This document shows positions 23,510 through 50,289 of a stretch of 64,000 nt of DNA, piece after piece; the stretch's first letter is position 1, and each line of letters begins with the position of its first letter. Location: positions 62,001-126,000 of the forward strand of contig CAMDWJ010000003.1 of NCBI GenBank assembly GCA_945877815.1, written 5' to 3'. The notes beneath the pieces were generated by a model, which worked only from the letters and a program-made list of their open reading frames with translations, made no database searches and was not told the origin of the DNA. The position numbers were made by a program, and so were the translations under genes. This DNA comes from Caenispirillum bisanense. Its GTDB lineage: Bacteria > Pseudomonadota > Alphaproteobacteria > Rhodospirillales > UBA2165.

Positions 23510-24508
23510 CTACTTCTTCAGCCCAATGCCGGTTTTCTTGTTCACGAAGGCAAGCGTATAGGCTTTGCGATAATCCATATCCTTCGGATAGAGCCCTTGC
23601 TCCGACATCACGGCGTGGAATTCCTTCCAGCGCGCCTCGCTCATCGCACCGACGCCGTTCGCCGACGCATCGCCCGAATCGACGATGCCGTATTGCTTCA
23701 TCTTGGCAATGCCGTAGGCGATTAGAGGATCGGTCATTTCGGGATTGTCTTTTTTGATGAGCGCATTGCCGGACGCCGGATCGCCATAGAGATAGCTATA
23801 CCAGCCTTCGATCGAGGCATCGACGAAGCGCTGCACGAGCGCCGGATTTTCGGCCACCAGTTTTTGCGATGTCTGAATCAGCGCGCCATAGGAGGCGTAT
23901 CCCGCATCGGCGATCAGCATGATGACCGGCTTCACGCCCTGACCCTCGATCACGAAGGGCTCTGAGCCGAGATAACCTTGCTGGATCGCCGAAGTGCTGG
24001 CGAGGAAGGGGGCCGCGCTGAAGGTATAGGGGCGAATCTGTTCGTCGTTATAGCCGAACTTCGAGCGCAGGAAGAGCCACCAGCCGACCCGCGTATCGGC
24101 GCCGATCATGATCGGCTTGCCCTTCAACTGTGCCAACGAATCGTTGCCCTGGCCGGGATGGGCGATGAGGACCGAGGGGTCCTTCTGATACATCGCCGCG
24201 ACCGCGACCATCGGAATATTTTCCTTCACGTAATTGAGTGATATGAAGGAATTCGACGACATGTTGAAATCGAGCCGGCCGGCGGCGAGCAGCTGGGCGT
24301 GATTGACCTGCGGCCCGCCCGGGCGAAGCGTGACTTCGAGCCCGTGCTTCGCATAGATGCCGGCGCCGATCGCCTGATAGAAGCCGCCATGTTCGGCCTG
24401 CGCCTTCCAGTCGGTGCCGAAGGTGACCTTGTCGGCGGCGTGGGCGGAAACTGTGGCGGAAAGCGCGACCATGAGAGCCGCAGCAAGAACGGAAAGTCGA
24501 AGGATCAT
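23510..24508 (-). CDS. NMT1/THI5-like ABC substrate-binding protein
   Basis: 332 residues: signal peptide (LSVLAAALMVALSATVSAHA), then the NMT1 domain with KVTFGTDWKAQAEHGGFYQA, GLEVTLRPGGPQV and the pattern of hydroxymethylpyrimidine/riboflavin/nitrate-type binders. The start at 24508 is chosen because the longer frame reads MLSLSKHG, which comes from the upstream palindromic repeat rather than from protein sequence. Upstream lies ribA, downstream the ATPase and permease. The ligand is unknown; a flavin or pyrimidine-related molecule is suggested only by the ribA neighbourhood. Confidence 0.88.
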   Translation of the reverse strand: MILRLSVLAAALMVALSATVSAHAADKVTFGTDWKAQAEHGGFYQAIGAGIYAKHGLEVTLRPGGPQVNHAQLLAAGRLDFNMSSNSFISLNYVKENIPMVAVAAMYQKDPSVLIAHPGQGNDSLAQLKGKPIMIGADTRVGWWLFLRSKFGYNDEQIRPYTFSAAPFLASTSAIQQGYLGSEPFVIEGQGVKPVIMLIADAGYASYGALIQTSQKLVAENPALVQRFVDASIEGWYSYLYGDPASGNALIKKDNPEMTDPLIAYGIAKMKQYGIVDSGDASANGVGAMSEARWKEFHAVMSEQGLYPKDMDYRKAYTLAFVNKKTGIGLKK

Positions 24509-24524
24509 CACGTCGGCCCCATGT

Positions 24525-24567
24525 TTCGACAGGCTCAACATGAGGGCCTCATCCTGAGCCTGTCGAA
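24525..24567. repeat. Inverted repeat of the TTCGACAGGCTCA family
   Basis: Perfect 13-bp arms TTCGACAGGCTCA (24525-24537) and TGAGCCTGTCGAA (24555-24567) with a 17-bp centre. This sequence type is a frequent dispersed bacterial intergenic repeat. It lies between ribA and the binding-protein gene in the same transcription direction and could form a hairpin in the mRNA. Confidence 0.8.
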
Positions 24568-39929: not shown

Positions 39930-41105
39930 TTATTTCTTCTTCTTAGGTTTGCTCCAAAGCTGCTTGGAGGCGCGCTTCGCCCCCTCTGCCATCGCCTCGA
40001 ACTTCGCCCAGCAGATTTCCGGATGGCCGACGCGCGGGCCGATGCCGCAATCGGTGCCGGCCAGCACGTTCTCGCGCCCGACCAGCTTGGCATAGCGCAC
40101 GAGGCGCTGGGCGACCAGATCGGGATGCTCGATGAAATCGGTGCAGTGACCGATCACACCCGGCACCAGGGTCGAATCCTTGGGCAGCTTCACATTCTCG
40201 AAGACCTGCCATTCATGCTCGTGTACCGGATTGGCGGCCTCAATCGAATAGCTCGACGCCTTCACGCGGAAGATGATGTCGATGATGTCCTTGAGCGCGA
40301 TGTCGTCGCTGTGCGGGCCGTGGAACGAACCCCAGCAGACGTGCAGGCGGATCTGCTCGCGCGGAATATTGCGTAGGGCATGGTTGAGCGCGTCGACGCG
40401 GATGGTCGCATACTTGCGATATTGCGGCACCGTCAGCTTGGGCAGGCAGGCCCAGCCGTCCGGCAAGTCTGGATCGTCGATCTGCAGAATGAAGCCGGCT
40501 TTTGCGATGGCTTCGTATTCGACTCGCATCGCCTCGGCGATGGCATAGACGAATTCTTCCTCGGTCTTGTAGTAATCGTTGCGCATCCAATGTTCGATGG
40601 TGCCCGGCGTATTGGCCGGCAGGAAGGCCTCCTTCACCTTGGAGCCCTTGAGCGAGGCCTTGAAGGTTTCGACATCGGCCTTGATGAAGTCCTGGCCGAT
40701 ATAGCGCAGCGGCTCGACGCAGATAGGCGTGCCCGCAGGCGCCGGGAAACGACGGCCTTCGAAATACTTGCCGAAGCGCCGTTCGTCGCGCGCAATCATG
40801 TTGAGAGGCGCAAACTTCTTGCCCGGATTTACGCGAAGCTCGAACCCCGCCAACCGCTCGCGCCCGTAGTTGGTGAAGTTCACCTTGTTGAATTCGCCGT
40901 CGTTGACGCTGTCGAGACCGCAATCGATCTGTTTCTTCACGACGTCCGTAATCGACCGGTTCAGAATCTTGTCGAGCTTCTTCTTGTCGATTTTCTTGCC
41001 TGCCATGCGTTCGGCGATCAGCGGTTTCAGATCGTCCGGGCGCGGCAACGCGCCGGCATGTGTCGTGAGAATGCGATTCTCACTGAATTGTGTTGTATAC
41101 GCCAT
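39930..41105 (-). CDS. MetE C-domain-like protein (cobalamin-independent methyltransferase superfamily)
   Basis: 391 residues, lacking the MetE N-terminal domain. Metal ligands of the MetE catalytic domain are visible: HVCWGS (His and Cys), IEAAN (Glu) and GTDCGIG (Cys). The methionine-synthase name is therefore not justified; related single-domain proteins act in other pathways. A Lys-rich C-terminus (KPKKKK) follows. The start is the ATG at 41105. It is one of three such proteins in the window, each in a different context. Substrate unknown. Confidence 0.85.
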   Translation of the reverse strand: MAYTTQFSENRILTTHAGALPRPDDLKPLIAERMAGKKIDKKKLDKILNRSITDVVKKQIDCGLDSVNDGEFNKVNFTNYGRERLAGFELRVNPGKKFAPLNMIARDERRFGKYFEGRRFPAPAGTPICVEPLRYIGQDFIKADVETFKASLKGSKVKEAFLPANTPGTIEHWMRNDYYKTEEEFVYAIAEAMRVEYEAIAKAGFILQIDDPDLPDGWACLPKLTVPQYRKYATIRVDALNHALRNIPREQIRLHVCWGSFHGPHSDDIALKDIIDIIFRVKASSYSIEAANPVHEHEWQVFENVKLPKDSTLVPGVIGHCTDFIEHPDLVAQRLVRYAKLVGRENVLAGTDCGIGPRVGHPEICWAKFEAMAEGAKRASKQLWSKPKKKK

Positions 41106-41270
41106 TGAGTCTTCTCCCCGATGAAAATCGCGCGGCCAGTTGACGATCGCGCCTGAAGCGTGACGCAACTGTCAGGCCGGTCGGGGATAATGTCAACGAC
41201 CTCGACGACGCGGACGCGGTGGGACGTTGGTCAATCGCCGTAAGGAAATTTCCCACACGCGTGGGCGTCG

Positions 41271-42092: not shown

Positions 42093-42911
42093 CTAAAGTT
42101 CCATGTGGCGGTCGGTCGGACGCCAGGCGCTAAACTTGCGATCGATATAGACGAGGGCCGAATTGACGATCAGCACCAGGGCGGTCGCCACGATGATGCC
42201 GGTAAAGGCGCCGGTCACATCCATCTGCTGGCGCGAATGTTCGATGTAATAGCCGATGCCTTCGTTGCCCACGAGAAATTCGCCGATGATCGCGGCACTC
42301 ACCGCGCGCGGCAGGGCGATCTTGAGGCCTGAGAAGAAAAACGGCAGCAGCGCGTTCCAGATGACTTCACGGCTGATGCGCGATTCCGAGGCACCCACCA
42401 CGCGCGCCATATTGATGAGGCGCGAATCCACGCCCCGAATGCCGGCAAAGATGGCAATGAAGACGGGATAGAAGACCAGGAGGCCGATCAGCCACAGCTT
42501 GGGTGCGTCGTTGATGCCGAACCACAAGATGAACAGTGGGATCAGCGCGTATTTGGGCACGCCGACCGAGGCCATGATGAAGGGTTCTATCGCATCGGTG
42601 AAACGCGGCAGGCGGCGCAGCACGAAGGGGAGTCCCACGCCGAAGAAACAGCCGATGGCGAAGCCGATCGCCGATATCTTGAGCGTGACATAGGTGTGAT
42701 GCCCCAATTCGCCCGAAGCCGCGATCTTGAGCAGGCGGTCCCACACTTTGAAGGGATCGGCGACGAACATCTCGCCCGCACTTTGCGAGCCGGCCTTCCA
42801 CACCCAGATCAAGAAGACGGCGAACGCAATCTGGCCGGCCCGTACGATATAGGGCCGCCAATTGAATCCGTTGGGCGCGGCGAGGTCCATTGTCTGTTCG
42901 GCGTTGCTCAT
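42093..42911 (-). CDS. ABC transporter permease (NMT1/SsuC type, second permease)
   Basis: 272 residues with six membrane segments and the coupling motif around GASESRISREVIWNALLPFFFSG. Its ATG overlaps the ATPase stop by four bases. With the permease at 43708 it forms a presumably heterodimeric channel, because two distinct permeases flank one ATPase. Probably imports the ligand of the binding protein at 44671. Confidence 0.92.
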   Translation of the reverse strand: MSNAEQTMDLAAPNGFNWRPYIVRAGQIAFAVFLIWVWKAGSQSAGEMFVADPFKVWDRLLKIAASGELGHHTYVTLKISAIGFAIGCFFGVGLPFVLRRLPRFTDAIEPFIMASVGVPKYALIPLFILWFGINDAPKLWLIGLLVFYPVFIAIFAGIRGVDSRLINMARVVGASESRISREVIWNALLPFFFSGLKIALPRAVSAAIIGEFLVGNEGIGYYIEHSRQQMDVTGAFTGIIVATALVLIVNSALVYIDRKFSAWRPTDRHMEL

Positions 42912-43699
42912 TGCACTTGTGCCCGGATGCGCTGATAGAGTTCGATGAATTCGGGATGGGTAAGGATGCCGCGTATATCGCGAGGACGCGGGATCGTGAT
43001 GCGATGTTCACCCGCCACGCTGGAAGGCTGGCGGGTCAGCACAAGCGTGCGGTCACCGAGCGCGATGGCTTCGGAGATATCGTGGGTGACGAAGACGATG
43101 GTTTTTTTGCCAAGGTTCCATAGGCGCATCAGATCGTCTTGCAACTGCAGACGCGTCTGCGCATCGAGCGCGCCGAACGGCTCGTCCATCAAGATGACGG
43201 GCGGATCGTAGACCAGCGTGCGAATCAACGAGGTACGCTTGCGCATGCCGCCCGACAATTCGTGCGGGTAGTGATCCTCCCAGCCGGCGAGGCCGACCGC
43301 GCGGATCAGCGTTTGCGCACGCGCGCGCGTCTCGTCATTCAGTTTCCCTTGGACCAGGAGGGGGAATAACACGTTTTCGAGACAGGTGCGCCACGGCAAT
43401 AGATTGTCTTCTTGCGTCACGTAGCCGATCTGGCAATTGAGGCCGGGCTTCAGCGACTTCATGTCGTTGATGGGCGCAAGTTGCGACTGGAAGCGAATTT
43501 CGCCGCCGCTCGCCGCGTCGATCTGCGCGATCATGTTGAGCAACGTCGTCTTGCCGCCGCCCGACGGGCCGATGATGGTGAGAAACTCACCCTCGTTGAC
43601 CGAGAAACTAAGACCTTGAATGATCCACGGCGAGGGTTCGCGGCCGGCACGCGTGGCGAAACGCTTGGCAAGATCGCGGACTTCGAGAAGAACGGACAT
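42908..43699 (-). CDS. ABC transporter ATP-binding protein (NMT1/SsuB type)
   Basis: 263 residues. Walker A GPSGGGKTT, Q-loop YVTQEDNLLPW, signature SGGMRKRTSLIRTL, Walker B VILMDEPFGALDA and the switch His in VFVTHDI are complete. The ATG at 43699 follows an 8-bp gap after the first permease. Located between two permease genes in one minus-strand operon. Confidence 0.94.
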   Translation of the reverse strand: MSVLLEVRDLAKRFATRAGREPSPWIIQGLSFSVNEGEFLTIIGPSGGGKTTLLNMIAQIDAASGGEIRFQSQLAPINDMKSLKPGLNCQIGYVTQEDNLLPWRTCLENVLFPLLVQGKLNDETRARAQTLIRAVGLAGWEDHYPHELSGGMRKRTSLIRTLVYDPPVILMDEPFGALDAQTRLQLQDDLMRLWNLGKKTIVFVTHDISEAIALGDRTLVLTRQPSSVAGEHRITIPRPRDIRGILTHPEFIELYQRIRAQVQ

Positions 43700-43707
43700 G
43701 CGACGAG

Positions 43708-44541
43708 TTACTCCTTTTGCGCCGTGACGTCGGACGGCGGGCGCCAGCGCAGCAGGCGCTTCTCGACGAAATTCACGATCCAGTTGGTGATGAACACGAT
43801 GATGCACACTGCGGTCAGCGCCACGAAAACACCTGTCGTATCGAAATTCATGGACCGAAGCTGGATCATGTATCCCAGACCGCGGTTGGCGGAAATCAGT
43901 TCGGCCACCACCGCGCCGCCGATCGAATAGGGCATGGCGATGCGAAAGCCGGTGAAGATATGCGGTACAGCGCCCGGAAAGATGATGTGGCGCGCGACAT
44001 AGGATTCGGATGCACCCGCCACCTGTGCCATCTGCACCAGCTTGGGGTCCAGCGTGCGCACGCCGGTCTGGGTCGCGAAATAGACGATGAAGAAAACCGT
44101 GAAGGCGACAAGCGCGATCTTGGATTCAATGCCGATTCCGAACCACAAGATGAAGAGTGGCGCCAAGGCCAATTTGGGCGAGCCGTAGCCGCCGACCATG
44201 AAGGGGTCGAGGATGGCGGTGAGGATCGGTTGGCGGCGCAACAAAAAGGGCAGGATCGCCGCCGGGATGCCGCCGATCACGAAACCGATCATGGCTTCAG
44301 AAAATGTATAGGAGGCATGGCGTAGTAGCTCGCCGCTGAGCAGCCCGCTATAAAGCCGCACCGCGACGCCCCACGGCGTTCCGACCCAATAGACCCCAAG
44401 CAAAAGACTGAGCCCGTGCCAGATCGCCAACAACGCGATCAAAACCAAAATATGGTCGCGGTGACTGTAGAGCTTGGCGGTGAACCTGCCCGCGTCGAAG
44501 ACGCCGACGCTGGGTCCGCCGGCCGATTTCAGTGTCGCCAT
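43708..44541 (-). CDS. ABC transporter permease (NMT1/SsuC type, first permease)
   Basis: 277 residues, six predicted helices and the loop GASESYVARHIIFPGAVPHIFTG. GGGAGAAGTC precedes the ATG at 44541, which is why I prefer it over the ATG 12 bases upstream. First gene of the ABC operon and divergent from the binding protein, so the promoters lie in the 129-bp gap 44542-44670. Confidence 0.92.
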   Translation of the reverse strand: MATLKSAGGPSVGVFDAGRFTAKLYSHRDHILVLIALLAIWHGLSLLLGVYWVGTPWGVAVRLYSGLLSGELLRHASYTFSEAMIGFVIGGIPAAILPFLLRRQPILTAILDPFMVGGYGSPKLALAPLFILWFGIGIESKIALVAFTVFFIVYFATQTGVRTLDPKLVQMAQVAGASESYVARHIIFPGAVPHIFTGFRIAMPYSIGGAVVAELISANRGLGYMIQLRSMNFDTTGVFVALTAVCIIVFITNWIVNFVEKRLLRWRPPSDVTAQKE

Positions 44542-44670
44542 GACTTCTCCCATCGCGCGGTTTTCGACGCGGATCGGCGCCGTTCGACGGCGCTTCGCCT
44601 GTTGCGGCTGTTGGCCGCTTGGAGCATTGTAGCCAAGAATTAGCGCTAAAAATAGCCAAGGGAGGCTTAA

Positions 44671-45684
44671 ATGTTCGATCAGACTCTCCGCGCTGCGGCA
44701 ATTGCCGGCGCCTTTTTTGCCGGGCTGTTGCCCACTCCATCCCGCGCCGCCGATATCGACGTCATTCTCGCCCTACCCACGAATACCCTCACCTTCACCG
44801 CGGCCTTCCTGGCCGAGGACGCGGGGTTCTTCAAAAAGAACGGATTGAACGTCACCCAGCGCCAATTGGCCGGCGTCGCTTCCAACAATGCCGTCATCAA
44901 CGGCAGCGTCGATTTCCTGTTGGGCACCATCGCCACCATGCTGAACGGCGCGTCAATGGGCCAGCCGATGCTGATGATCGCCAATATGGTGGATCGCCCG
45001 CTGGTCGAGATCGTGATCCGCAAAGATATCGCGGATGCCGCCGGCATCACCGCCACTTCACCCCTGGCCGATCGTATCAAACTTCTGAAGGGCAAAACCA
45101 TCGCCATCCAGGGTATCGGCTCCATGACCCATTCGCTGCCGCGCCTCGCCGCGCGTCGCGGTGGGTTCGATCCCGAGACCGATATCCGCGTCACACCGAT
45201 GGACCCGGCGACCATGCTGGCCGCGCTCACCGCCAAGCAGATCGAGGGTTATTCGACCTCGCTGCCCTTTACCACCGAAGCCGTCGTCAAAGGGGCGGGC
45301 ATCATCTTGGTCAGCGGTCCGCAAGGCGACATGGATGAATATACGCCGTTGGGCTACACGACGCTCGGCGCGCGCCCCGACAAATGCGTGAAGGAACGCG
45401 AGAAGTGCCTGCGCATGGTCGCCGCCTTTGCCGATACCGCGAAATTCATCAAGGAAAAGCCGGCCGAGACCTTTGCGCTCATCCAAAAACGGTTTCCACA
45501 GATGGACCCCAAGGTGCTCGAAATGGCCTGGGCGGTCGTGGGCAAGGCCCATACGACCGATGTCGCCGTCAAAGAGAATACATTGAACAACTCGCAGAAA
45601 TGGACTTTGGATGCGGGCCTGCTCGATCCCAAGAACGAGGTGAAGAATTACAACGGTCTGTGGACGACCGAGTTCGTCAAATAG
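44671..45684 (+). CDS. NMT1-like ABC substrate-binding protein
   Basis: 337 residues with a signal peptide (AAAIAGAFFAGLLPTPSRA) and the NMT1/SsuA-type fold (LPTNTLTFTAAFLAEDAGFF, ATMLNGASMGQPMLMI, GKTIAIQGIGSMT). AAGGGAGGC lies upstream of the ATG. Divergent from the two-permease ABC operon, which supplies its transporter. An interrupted relative of its 3' end lies directly downstream. Ligand unknown; sulfonates, aromatic acids and nitrate-like anions are common for this class. Confidence 0.9.
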   Translation: MFDQTLRAAAIAGAFFAGLLPTPSRAADIDVILALPTNTLTFTAAFLAEDAGFFKKNGLNVTQRQLAGVASNNAVINGSVDFLLGTIATMLNGASMGQPMLMIANMVDRPLVEIVIRKDIADAAGITATSPLADRIKLLKGKTIAIQGIGSMTHSLPRLAARRGGFDPETDIRVTPMDPATMLAALTAKQIEGYSTSLPFTTEAVVKGAGIILVSGPQGDMDEYTPLGYTTLGARPDKCVKEREKCLRMVAAFADTAKFIKEKPAETFALIQKRFPQMDPKVLEMAWAVVGKAHTTDVAVKENTLNNSQKWTLDAGLLDPKNEVKNYNGLWTTEFVK

Positions 45685-45712
45685 ATCGCGAGTGACGCTT
45701 CAGGGGCTAGGA

Positions 45713-45809
45713 AAATCGCGGAAATTCAGTCTGGTCGCCGGCGCGATCGAGCCCAACGACAGTACTCAAGGATTTCAAAGGCCTTTACACCGACGAATTC
45801 ATGAAGTGA
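45713..45809 (+). pseudogene. Remnant 3' end of a second NMT1-like binding protein
   Basis: Starting 28 bp after the intact binding-protein gene, the sequence reads KSRKFSLVAGAIEPNDS and, after a +1 shift near 45761, VLKDFKGLYTDEFMK then stop. It aligns with the intact protein's end (NSQKWTLDAGLLDPKNE, VKNYNGLWTTEFVK). So this is the leftover end of a duplicated or replaced binding-protein gene. No start codon or promoter is present. Confidence 0.8.
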
Positions 45810-45884
45810 ATTCATAACGTCATGTTGTAAAATCCTACCCCCGCATGACATCCGTGCGGGGCTTTTTCTTCGAGGAGCACCGTC

Positions 45885-47054
45885 ATGCCCGCCGCCCGCA
45901 AAACCAAATCGAAAGCCACGGCCAAGAAAGCCAAATCGGCGCGCAAACCGGCGGTGAAGACAAAGGCAAAGACGGCCGTCAAAAAGGCCACGAAAAAAGT
46001 CGCAAAAAAGGTCGCGGCGAAAAGAAAAGCCACGCCGAAGAAGATCGCCCAGCGCCGCAGCCAGCGCATCGTTTCGCTCGACATCCACACCCACATTTCG
46101 ATCCCCGAGGCCGCACAACTGCAACGCGCGGTGCAAAGCGAGGAGGAAACGCAAAAGGCGGCGCGTTACGCCCAGGCCACGGCGCGCGACAAGGGAGTCA
46201 TCAATCCGTCGGCGCGCGAGGATACCAACGATCCCAAGCTGCGCCTTGCAAAAATGGACGAGGCCGGCATCGACATCCAGCTGGTCAGCATGAACACCAA
46301 TCCGCCCTATTACTCGCTTTCGGGCGAGGACGGATTGAAGGTCGCCAAACTCGCCAATCAGGGCATCCTCGACTATACCCGCAACGCACCGGATCGCTTC
46401 GTCGGGCTCGGTATGGCGCCGATGCAGTCGGCGAGCCACGCCGTCGAGGCGCTGGAACATGCCATGAGCCTCGGGCTCAAGGGCATCAATATCCTCACCA
46501 ATATCGGCGGGCACGACCTCGGCGAAGAAATGTTCTGGCCGGTGTGGAAGCGGGCCGAAGAACTAGGTGCCGCGGTGTTGCTGCATCCGCTGGGCTTCAC
46601 CAATCAGGACCGCTTCATGAAATTCCGGCTCGCCAACACGGTCGGCCAGCCCCTTGAAGAGACCCTGGCGATGTTGTCGCTGATCCACGAGGGCGTGATG
46701 GCGCGCCATCCGAAGCTGAAGATCCTCATGTCGCACGGTGGTGGATACCTGCCCTTCTATTATGGGCGCTCCGATTCCACCTTTTTCCGCGATCCGCACC
46801 TGCGCGGCGCCATCGACAAGAAACCCAGCACCTATATCCGCCAATTCTATCTCGATACCTGCGTGTTCGACCTACACATGATCGAGTTTCTCGCCGACAC
46901 CTACGATATGGACCACGTCGTGCTCGGCACCGACTTCCCGTACCGCGACTGGGGCGCGGTCCAGATGATCAACAGCTCCAAGAAGTTGGGCAGGGCGCAC
47001 AAGGAAGGCATCCTTGGCCGCAATGCCGCCAAAGTCCTGGGCATGACGATCTGA
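45885..47054 (+). CDS. Amidohydrolase-2 (ACMSD-type) with histone-H1-like N-terminal tail
   Basis: 389 residues. Residues 61-389 are a TIM-barrel metal enzyme: DIHTH (66-70), LHPLG, MSHGGG and GTDFPY provide the usual His/His/His/Asp ligands of decarboxylating amidohydrolases. Residues 1-60 are a Lys/Ala/Thr tail with 25 Lys or Arg and no acidic residue, which resembles bacterial histone-H1-like proteins. The tail is in the same frame, with GAGGAG before its ATG, so it appears to be genuinely translated. The substrate is unknown; ACMSD, resorcylate decarboxylase and 4-oxalomesaconate hydratase are relatives. Confidence 0.88.
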   Translation: MPAARKTKSKATAKKAKSARKPAVKTKAKTAVKKATKKVAKKVAAKRKATPKKIAQRRSQRIVSLDIHTHISIPEAAQLQRAVQSEEETQKAARYAQATARDKGVINPSAREDTNDPKLRLAKMDEAGIDIQLVSMNTNPPYYSLSGEDGLKVAKLANQGILDYTRNAPDRFVGLGMAPMQSASHAVEALEHAMSLGLKGINILTNIGGHDLGEEMFWPVWKRAEELGAAVLLHPLGFTNQDRFMKFRLANTVGQPLEETLAMLSLIHEGVMARHPKLKILMSHGGGYLPFYYGRSDSTFFRDPHLRGAIDKKPSTYIRQFYLDTCVFDLHMIEFLADTYDMDHVVLGTDFPYRDWGAVQMINSSKKLGRAHKEGILGRNAAKVLGMTI

Positions 47055-47185: not shown

Positions 47186-48718
47186 ATGATCAAGAGATCG
47201 ATCGGCGCCGGCATCGCCGCCGTCTTGCTTTTCGTCTCGCCTGTGGCGGCGCAAAAGTCGAAGGACACGATCCGTTTTTCGACGTCCGAATCGATCAAGC
47301 TGCTCGATCCGTTCTTCTTCACCCATTTCGAGGCCGCGCCGATCTATCGCACCATTTACGAGAATTTGGTCGGCTACGACGCCCGCAATCACAAATTCGT
47401 CGGCATCATGGCGAAATCCTGGACCTCGCCGAGCCCTGGCGTCTACGACTTCGACTTGCGCGAAGACGTCGTCTTCAGCAACGGCGACAAGTTCGACGCC
47501 GACGACGTCGTCTATTTCATCAACTTCGCTATCGATCCCAAAACGCGCATTCACAACAAGCCGCGTTATCTGTGGGCCAAGAGCGCCGAGAAGCTCGGAC
47601 AATACAAGGTGCGCATCACGGTGGCGAAGCCCACGCCCAAGGATCTGCTCGATGTCGCCTCCTATACTTGGAGCGAAAATTCCAAGGTCCACAAGGCGCT
47701 CGGCGAGAACAACGAAAGCTACGGACGCAATCCGATCGGCACCGGCCCCTACAAGGTGATCGAGATGGAATCGAACAAGGCCATCGTCATGGTCCCTAAC
47801 GAGAAATTCAAACCCGGCGGGGATGGCGTCGGTGCTCGCGTCAAACGTCTCGAAGCAGTCTTCATCGCCGACCAACAGGTGCAGATGGCGCAGATCATGA
47901 CCGGCGGCATCGATATGATGCGCGATCCGACACCCGACCAGGTGACCGAGCTATCCAAGAATCCGAACCTCGCCGTCACCTCGGTCGGTTCGCACAACAT
48001 GATCTATCTGCAATACGACGCGGCGAACCGCGCGGGCAACAAGGCCTTTAGCGACGTACGAGTGCGCAGAGCGCTGACCATGGCGATCAACCGCGACGAG
48101 ATGATCAAGCATATCGCCGCCGGCGGTTCGTCCGCCAAGCGTCTCGATTCCATGTGTTACCAAGACATGCTCGCCTGCGATGCCGCACCAACGCCGCCCC
48201 CGAGTTTCGATCCCGTGACGGCGAAGAAACTTTTGGCCGAAGCAGGCTACGCCAGCGGGCTCGAAATCGAACTCGCCTCGCGCCAGCCGTCCAAGGACGC
48301 CGCCGTCGCAATGGCGGGCTATTGGAACGCGGTCGGCGTGAAGACCAACGTGCAGCTCATGACCATCGTTACGTTGGACAAGGCACGCGCCGACGGCAAG
48401 TTACAGACCTACATCGGCGAGCGCCCCCTGACCACGTCGGACGCCAGCCACGTGATGGAGATTTTCTTCCTCGATCCGCGCCGCGACTATTGGCAGGACA
48501 AGGCGATCGTCGATCTCGCCAACGAGGGCTACACGATCTTCGATGCGCCCAAGCGGACCGCACATTACAAAAAAATCTTCGACCGCATCAACGACGAGTC
48601 TTTGATGTTGCCGATCCATACATTGCCGTCGGTTTATATCCACACCAAGGACGTCAAGATCTTTCCGAATCAACTGGTGGATTACGACACTTTGATCTCC
48701 GACTTCGGCTGGAAATAA
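47186..48718 (+). CDS. Peptide/nickel-type ABC substrate-binding protein, first copy
   Basis: 510 residues, signal peptide (GIAAVLLFVSPVAAQ), family 5 extracellular solute-binding fold. N-terminal KSKDTIRFSTSESIKLLDPFFFTHFEA and downstream NPIGTGPYKV, DIMRDPTPDQV are shared with the next gene in tandem. No permease or ATPase gene is nearby. Ligands for this family include peptides, nickel chelates and opines; here unknown. Confidence 0.9.
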   Translation: MIKRSIGAGIAAVLLFVSPVAAQKSKDTIRFSTSESIKLLDPFFFTHFEAAPIYRTIYENLVGYDARNHKFVGIMAKSWTSPSPGVYDFDLREDVVFSNGDKFDADDVVYFINFAIDPKTRIHNKPRYLWAKSAEKLGQYKVRITVAKPTPKDLLDVASYTWSENSKVHKALGENNESYGRNPIGTGPYKVIEMESNKAIVMVPNEKFKPGGDGVGARVKRLEAVFIADQQVQMAQIMTGGIDMMRDPTPDQVTELSKNPNLAVTSVGSHNMIYLQYDAANRAGNKAFSDVRVRRALTMAINRDEMIKHIAAGGSSAKRLDSMCYQDMLACDAAPTPPPSFDPVTAKKLLAEAGYASGLEIELASRQPSKDAAVAMAGYWNAVGVKTNVQLMTIVTLDKARADGKLQTYIGERPLTTSDASHVMEIFFLDPRRDYWQDKAIVDLANEGYTIFDAPKRTAHYKKIFDRINDESLMLPIHTLPSVYIHTKDVKIFPNQLVDYDTLISDFGWK

Positions 48719-48744
48719 TCGAGAAAATTGCAGGGAGTAACGCT

Positions 48745-50289
48745 ATGAAAATTTCCGCTAAACTAGTCGCGTTCGGTATGGCCGCCGGGCTATCGCTTAC
48801 GCTCCAGGCCTCGCAGGCCGCGGCGCAGAAATCGAAAGATACGATCCGCTATGCGACCACCGAGTCCATCAAGCTGCTCGATCCCTATTTCTTCACGCAT
48901 TTCGAAGCCTCGCCGCTCTACGAGACGATCTACGACACGCTGGTCGCCTACGATTCGCGCAGCCACAAGGTCGTGCCCATGCTGGCCAAGGCATGGACCG
49001 AAGTGGAACCCGGCGTTTACGACATCGAACTGCGCGACGACATCGCGTTCAGCAACGGCGACAAGTACGACGCCGACGATGCGGTCTATTTCATCAATTG
49101 GATGATCTCGCCCGAAGCACGCATCCACAACAAGCCGCGTTACATGTGGACCAAGGGCGCCGAGAAGCTCGGACAGTACAAATTCCGCCTGCGCATGGTG
49201 AAGCATACGCCGAAGGACCTGCTCGATATGGGCGGCTACACTTGGCAGGAGAATTCCAAGGTCCATTCCAAGCTGGAGGACAAGGGATCCTACGGCCGCA
49301 ACCCCATCGGCACCGGCCCCTACAGGGTCGCGCAGTTCGAATCCAACAAGGCGCTCGTGATGGTGCCGAACGAGAAATTTACCCCGACACCCTATCGTCA
49401 GAAGGCGCGCGTCAGCCGCATCGAGGCGATGTTCATCCCCGACCAGGACACGCAGATCGCCCAAATCATGACCGGCGGCGTCGATATCATGCGCGACCCC
49501 TCGCCCGACCACATGGCCGAGATGGCGAAGAACAAAAACCTCGAAATCTCCGCCTTCGACAGCGACAATATGATCTATCTGCAGTTCGACGCCATGGGCC
49601 GTTCGGGCCATAAACCGGTGCAGGACGCGCGCGTGCGCCGGGCGCTGATCATGGCGATCAATCAGGACGAGTTGATCAAGCATTTGGCTGCCGGCGGACA
49701 CGCCGCCAAGAAACTCGGCTCCATGTGCCGTCCCTTCATGCAGGGCTGCGAAAGCCCGGCGGTGCTGCCGCCCGCGTACAATCCGGGGGAAGCAAAGAAG
49801 CTGCTCGCCGAAGCCGGCTATCCCAACGGCTTCGAATTGGAACTGATTTCGCGCAACCCGTCCAAGGATGCTGCGATCGGCCTGTCCGGCTATTGGAACG
49901 AGATCGGCGTGAAGACCAACGTGCAGCTTTTGCAGATCAGCGCGCTCGACAAGATGCGCGCCGACGGCAAACTGCAGGCCTATATCGGCGAACGGCCCTA
50001 TACCACGCCGGACGCCTCGCATCCGATGGACATCTTCTTTTTCGACAAGCGGCGCGATTATTGGGACGATGCGCAAATCCGCACCTGGGCCGAGGAGGGG
50101 CTGAGCATCTTCGATCCAAAGAAGCGCGCCGACCACTACAAGCAGATCTTCGACAAGATCAATACTCAGGCGTACATGATGGCGATCCACACGCTGCCGT
50201 CGGTCTTCATCCATTCCAAGGACGTGAAGATCCACGACAACCCGCTGGTCGACACCAACACCAATATCGGCGACTTCACCTGGAAGTAA
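48745..50289 (+). CDS. Peptide/nickel-type ABC substrate-binding protein, second copy
   Basis: 514 residues, signal peptide ending QAAAQ, with the same domain order as the previous gene (KSKDTIRYATTESIKLL, NPIGTGPYRV, DIMRDPSPDHM). The pair is about half identical by eye over long stretches, suggesting an old tandem duplication and ligand divergence. AGGGAG precedes the ATG. A terminator follows the stop. No transporter partners are present locally. Confidence 0.9.
   Translation: MKISAKLVAFGMAAGLSLTLQASQAAAQKSKDTIRYATTESIKLLDPYFFTHFEASPLYETIYDTLVAYDSRSHKVVPMLAKAWTEVEPGVYDIELRDDIAFSNGDKYDADDAVYFINWMISPEARIHNKPRYMWTKGAEKLGQYKFRLRMVKHTPKDLLDMGGYTWQENSKVHSKLEDKGSYGRNPIGTGPYRVAQFESNKALVMVPNEKFTPTPYRQKARVSRIEAMFIPDQDTQIAQIMTGGVDIMRDPSPDHMAEMAKNKNLEISAFDSDNMIYLQFDAMGRSGHKPVQDARVRRALIMAINQDELIKHLAAGGHAAKKLGSMCRPFMQGCESPAVLPPAYNPGEAKKLLAEAGYPNGFELELISRNPSKDAAIGLSGYWNEIGVKTNVQLLQISALDKMRADGKLQAYIGERPYTTPDASHPMDIFFFDKRRDYWDDAQIRTWAEEGLSIFDPKKRADHYKQIFDKINTQAYMMAIHTLPSVFIHSKDVKIHDNPLVDTNTNIGDFTWK

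Follow-up and report, generated by a model that had tools for sequence, protein, structure and literature searches.

What is a strongly cationic, Lys/Ala-rich tail doing on an amidohydrolase? Disordered tails with many positive charges are familiar chiefly from proteins that pack DNA or sit on granules, and a sequence-only reading of this locus had reported 25 Lys/Arg and no Asp/Glu in residues 1-60 of such an enzyme, in frame with a complete metal-dependent barrel. Our recount gave the same figures (25 Lys/Arg, no Asp/Glu, net charge +25), and over residues 1-62 the composition is 20 Lys, 6 Arg, 15 Ala and no acidic residue. The open reading frame lies at 45885-47054 on the forward strand of the window (the whole 64,000-nucleotide stretch analysed here), starts with ATG and encodes 389 amino acids, with the following elements:

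45839..45861, + strand: terminator-like hairpin then CTTTTTCTTC, immediately 5' of the amidohydrolase ribosome-binding site; a matching hairpin lies 5' of the congener's gene (L014 alignment)
45872..45877, + strand: Shine-Dalgarno-like GAGGAG, 7 nt 5' of the amidohydrolase ATG, read from the sequence
45885..46070, + strand: Lys/Ala-rich tail, residues 1-62, net charge +26, no Asp/Glu
46071..47054, + strand: Amidohydro_2 (PF04909) ACMSD-like barrel, residues 63-389 and the stop codon, assigned from Pfam, phmmer, Foldseek and the metal-site residues

The tail is part of the reading frame. Ahead of the barrel, the only in-frame ATG, GTG or TTG codons are the ATG at codon 1 and a GTG at codon 24; since none lies between codon 24 and the barrel, translation from a normal start cannot begin downstream of the tail, and a wrongly assigned start codon was rejected. 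The single congener that turned up is G002 (contig CANIGJ010000002.1). Its gene has an ATG directly ahead of the barrel, but no Shine-Dalgarno sequence is visible 5' of that ATG; its upstream start is ambiguous by three residues. An AlphaFold model computed with 31 sequences as input predicts the tail to be disordered, with pLDDT below 50 over residues 1-58 and no secondary structure assigned in residues 1-60. The window tail contains a weak 12-bp tandem repeat (score 42), and a tandem repeat search of the G002 tail reported none. The hairpin at 45839-45861 could be the terminator of the upstream gene or an attenuator; the scanned stretch holds 7 terminator-like sites, against 2.6 expected.

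Within its genome the tail is an outlier. We compared it with 542 open reading frames kept by our own codon-usage ORF picker from 864 kb (the window and 40 stretches of 20 kb), or 22% of the 3.98-Mb genome. The first 60 residues of these ORFs have a mean net charge of 0.53 (sd 3.82); at +25 the window protein has the most positive N-terminus of all, the next standing at +14, and several of the runners-up look, to the eye, like wrong reading frames. Its 20 Lys in the first 60 residues are likewise the highest count, followed by 9. From the pooled ORF composition, the binomial probability of 25 or more Lys/Arg in 60 residues is 7e-10, a single-gene value uncorrected for gene number.

Analysis of the domain behind the tail bore out the complete barrel. 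Residues 66-386 matched PF04909 at E 1.2e-34, with 120.9 bits against a Pfam gathering cut-off of 26.4, and the metal site is intact. In the phmmer alignment H68, H70, H234, H284 and D350 are all identical to the human ACMSD metal-site residues given in the excerpt of PMC9021598 (His6, His8, His174, His224 and Asp291), and all five are invariant across the 31 aligned rows described below. The nearest solved relatives are ACMSD structures, both by sequence (human ACMSD, phmmer E 1.4e-44) and by fold (2wm1, Foldseek 1.7e-23), and several solved-structure relatives carry the names of decarboxylases acting on carboxylated compounds; no NCBIfam model matched the amidohydrolase at E 1 or better. R295 occupies the place of the cross-subunit Arg235 of ACMSD. 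Of the ACMSD residues said to bind carboxylate in the excerpt of PMC11650718, Arg47 is replaced by Pro108 and Trp191 by Asn251 in the same alignment (human numbering), which is less certain at these two positions because residues 106-108 and 251-253 were modelled with pLDDT below 50; Trp188 corresponds to Arg248. Because Arg47 and Trp191 are not kept, the substrate of this ACMSD-like enzyme probably differs from that of ACMSD. The barrel domain has a net charge of −4, so the basicity of the protein belongs to its tail.

The gene sits among transport genes:

39930..41168, − strand: Meth_synt_2 (MetE C-domain-like) protein, ending SKPKKKK in both congeners
42093..44553, − strand: ABC transporter, permease, ATPase, permease (BPD_transp_1, ABC_tran), same order in G002
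44671..45684, + strand: NMT1-type solute-binding protein
45699..45806, + strand: relic of one more NMT1-type binding-protein gene, its C-terminal part in a broken frame; intact in G002 (L014:4690-5691)
47186..50289, + strand: two SBP_bac_5 solute-binding proteins, the start of the second approximate (48760 used); both present in G002

The order Meth_synt_2, permease, ATPase, permease, NMT1-type, amidohydrolase and two SBP_bac_5 is kept in G002, which has three intact NMT1-type genes versus one intact gene and one relic in the window. The relic was recognized by tblastn at E 7e-6 (another frame, 45674-45775, at 1.5e-5) and by blastn against G002 at 74.9% over 171 columns (2.6e-21). Apart from distant ATPase matches (27-29% identity), this neighbourhood was not found at 11 non-congeneric loci, two of which span less than 4 kb, or at the locus of the genome's own paralogue. 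The presence of transporter genes on both sides suggests catabolism of an imported compound; the enzyme would most likely act in the cytosol, as a decarboxylase or hydrolase, on a carboxylated small molecule taken up by the cell.

Close homologues are few. At E 1e-80 they occur in 6 of 24 genomes of the family and at E 1e-90 in 3 of 317 of the order, while at E 1e-75 only the genome itself was recovered among 385 genomes of the class and 398 of the phylum, sets that are samples and in which scoring covers the top few candidates per genome. Plasmid records matching the amidohydrolase numbered 412, all below 60% identity, and a pattern scan of genome contigs yielded one relative out of 184 pattern matches. 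Searched alone against its own genome, the 63-residue window tail found itself and one match at E 0.073 that contains three stops. The G002 tail, searched against the 24 family genomes, found only itself and missed even the window tail, so tail-only searches are blind to such tails and their silence is uninformative.

For an alignment and a tree we used 31 rows: 30 of the 32 genomes matching at 1e-55, one row each, and the paralogue L002. G044 and G111, which have no locus, and further paralogues stand outside this set, and the leader columns were left out of the tree. Here the window protein falls in a 12-row clade (support 100/100), with L010 as its nearest non-congener. With start codons that we chose for the relatives, leader length in the ten non-congeners of this clade is 10-24 residues and net charge +1 to +7; in the remaining 19 rows the leader measures 28-39 residues and its net charge is −1 to +4. 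The short leaders of the non-congeners indicate that the long tail is an expansion in this genus; the stem branch that carries it has 0.88 changes per column, and a short basic leader resembling those of the nearest relatives is the probable starting point of the tail. The sequence-only reading had named relatives lacking the tail, with no conservation, as the finding that would count against it. Half of this holds, in that the aligned relatives outside the genus lack the long tail, while the congener keeps it. From its absence in these relatives it follows that the core reaction does not need the tail. The tree positions of L027, L037 and L002, which lie on long branches, are uncertain according to a warning of the tree program. 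Elsewhere in the alignment, 16 of the 31 rows (L028, L029, L031-L033, L035, L036, L038-L045 and L002), all among the 19 outside the clade, share a conserved N-terminal Cys/His leader, for example MFFKCANHAPA; such leaders of the paralogue clade might bind metal.

The congener allows the tail to be followed through divergence. Counting as leader all residues before the invariant Asp66, the window protein has 65 residues with a net charge of +26 and G002 has 79 with +29. Identity is 89% between the domains and 47% between the tails, with 33 of 62 aligned tail codons differing in amino acid. Both tails start MxAARKTK. Nowhere in the aligned tails does a Lys stand opposite an acid; one Val stands opposite an Asp. 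An assembly artefact is unlikely, as the second genome has the same type of tail and the same gene order.

At four-fold sites of the domain 32% differ, which by our own conversion corresponds to 0.4 substitutions per site. We simulated neutral drift over this distance with stops forbidden and with substitutions only, whereas the real tails also differ by indels, and scored runs that jointly kept at most 1 acid and a net charge of at least +26 or, in the other direction, no acid and a net charge of at least +24. The mean net charge dropped to values near +10 to +13, and none of the 3000 runs at each of three base compositions passed the joint test in either direction. Over the shorter distances of 0.1 and 0.2 substitutions per site, the share of passing runs was 0.03% to 2.7%. 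Taken by itself, the acid count at 0.4 substitutions per site was only weakly unusual in the G000-to-G002 direction, with P 0.09 to 0.10. A first simulation with stops allowed, at 0.3 substitutions per site, gave P 0.045 and 0.0015 for open frame and acid count. Leaving indels aside is the chief weakness of all these simulations. Because neutral drift fails to reproduce the retained charge, the composition of the tail looks selected, as judged from the sequences of two species. Internal duplication could preserve the charge without selection. In addition, the tail encodes Lys by AAA in 12 of 20 cases and the domain by AAG in 12 of 17, a lean towards AAA that may reflect a local A-rich bias and counts against selection; the difference in GC3 is small (0.74 in the tail versus 0.81 in the domain).

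Based on these data, we give about an even chance to the reading that this ACMSD-type amidohydrolase is held to a polyanion inside the cell by its disordered, polycationic N-terminus, with selection acting on charge and disorder and not on sequence. Tethering to DNA, RNA, polyphosphate or membrane, as the sequence-only reading proposed, is plausible; our reading draws on a composition kept under sequence turnover, the predicted disorder and the analogy with AlgP, PhaF and Dps. The attachment would be electrostatic and non-specific, with nucleoid DNA, RNA or polyphosphate as the partner. The genome encodes PPK1 and PhaC, which makes polyphosphate and PHA granules possible partners, as is the nucleoid. 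Should the enzyme dimerise as ACMSD does, its paired tails with about +52 between them would make the binding multivalent and salt-sensitive. The analysis shows the tail itself, its position in frame, its predicted disorder and a composition that the congener retains; from these we infer binding, the kind of polyanion, dimerisation, the cellular location and any benefit. If the tail is indeed kept for its composition, it would illustrate a way for bacteria to anchor metabolism to the nucleoid or to polyphosphate by bulk charge.

A tolerated, functionless low-complexity extension that arose from a short basic leader, and is basic by chance or mutational habit, is possible if somewhat unlikely. 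The long tail is missing from the aligned relatives outside the genus, its sequence and length are poorly conserved, its weak tandem repeat hints at growth by duplication, and its Lys codons favour AAA, unlike those of the domain. However, the charge survived a turnover of sequence that neutral simulation does not reproduce, no repeat was reported for the G002 tail, and the GC3 gap between tail and domain is small. We think it unlikely that the tail instead serves the enzyme itself by guiding an anionic substrate, helping it stay soluble or binding an acidic partner protein, with no polyanion involved: a TIM barrel begins on the face opposite its active site, and leaders of 10-24 residues suffice in the nearest relatives. 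Compatible with such a role are the decarboxylase names of several solved-structure relatives, the replacement of the carboxylate-binding Arg47 and Trp191 by Pro108 and Asn251, and the slightly acidic domain.

That the tail delivers the enzyme to carboxylated pyrimidines of DNA or RNA, or to some other nucleic-acid substrate, seems very improbable. The fold family includes iso-orotate decarboxylase (4hk7_C, Foldseek 3.6e-17), which is said in the excerpt of PMC6305744 to decarboxylate 5-carboxycytosine; yet ACMSD is far closer (1.4e-44 versus 8.8e-14), and the transporter-gene setting points to an imported small molecule.

Two other enzymes of the genus with Lys-rich termini also speak for the tether reading. 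At least 4 Lys in the last 10 residues were found in 4 of the 542 ORFs: window 39930-41168 and L063:1788-2753, which were compared with homologues, window 23510-24541 and L081:2210-3571. The first is the Meth_synt_2 protein, whose SKPKKKK terminus is common to both congeners. In ten homologues, drawn from nine other genera and including one with 63% identity, the chain stops at the Leu-Trp that precedes the tail or roughly one residue beyond it (best match per genome with a locus given; G023 and paralogues left out). The second, a VOC/glyoxalase-type protein (G000:C19), ends KKDMGKKPKAKKAA, nearly the same in G002, and its best homologues in G013 (ending SRRQKV) and G005 are without a Lys-rich tail. 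As both proteins were chosen for their high rank in terminal Lys, their number is no estimate of frequency. The L081 protein (− strand) is of the nucleotidyltransferase/hexapeptide-repeat type and has the C-terminus RAKQKKKT. A polysaccharide deacetylase (PF04748; L094:16614-17729, − strand) has a short Lys/Ala leader followed by a hydrophobic stretch and was for that reason left out of the enzyme-tail count. It is distinctly doubtful that the genus tags selected metabolic enzymes with Lys-rich tails, long in the amidohydrolase and short in the Meth_synt_2 and VOC proteins, for one polyanionic scaffold in a loose, charge-addressed metabolon; if so, the nucleoid or a polyphosphate granule would be that scaffold.

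Among known systems, the enzyme resembles ACMSD in its fold, its metal site and the Arg (R295) that stands where ACMSD has the cross-subunit Arg235, and differs from it in the 62-residue cationic tail and in Pro108, Asn251 and Arg248 replacing Arg47, Trp191 and Trp188. The tail shares with those of AlgP and PhaF a Lys/Ala-rich composition with few acids, strong positive charge and predicted disorder. However, the excerpt of PMC9239181 describes AlgP and PhaF tails as C-terminal and on polyphosphate- or PHA-granule proteins, whereas the window tail is N-terminal and on an enzyme; it is also short beside the 195-residue disordered domain of AlgP (PMC9239181). In place of the 25 perfect KPAA repeats given there for AlgP, the window tail has no KPAA, one KPAV and the one weak 12-bp repeat. 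Among the matches listed from the open-licence PMC literature, none described an amidohydrolase with a histone-H1-like tail. The Dps fold is ferritin-like and unrelated to that of the amidohydrolase. According to the excerpt of PMC7023142, Dps pairs ferroxidase activity with a lysine-rich disordered DNA-binding N-terminus, much as an enzyme and a lysine-rich N-terminus predicted to be disordered are paired here, although the Dps tail is much shorter, with three Lys and one Arg. Given Dps as described in that excerpt, and the two further enzymes of the genus that have shorter Lys-rich tails, the initial statement that metabolic enzymes are not known to carry such tails is too strong. By analogy, our best reading is that the window tail works like those of AlgP, PhaF and Dps while belonging to none of these families.
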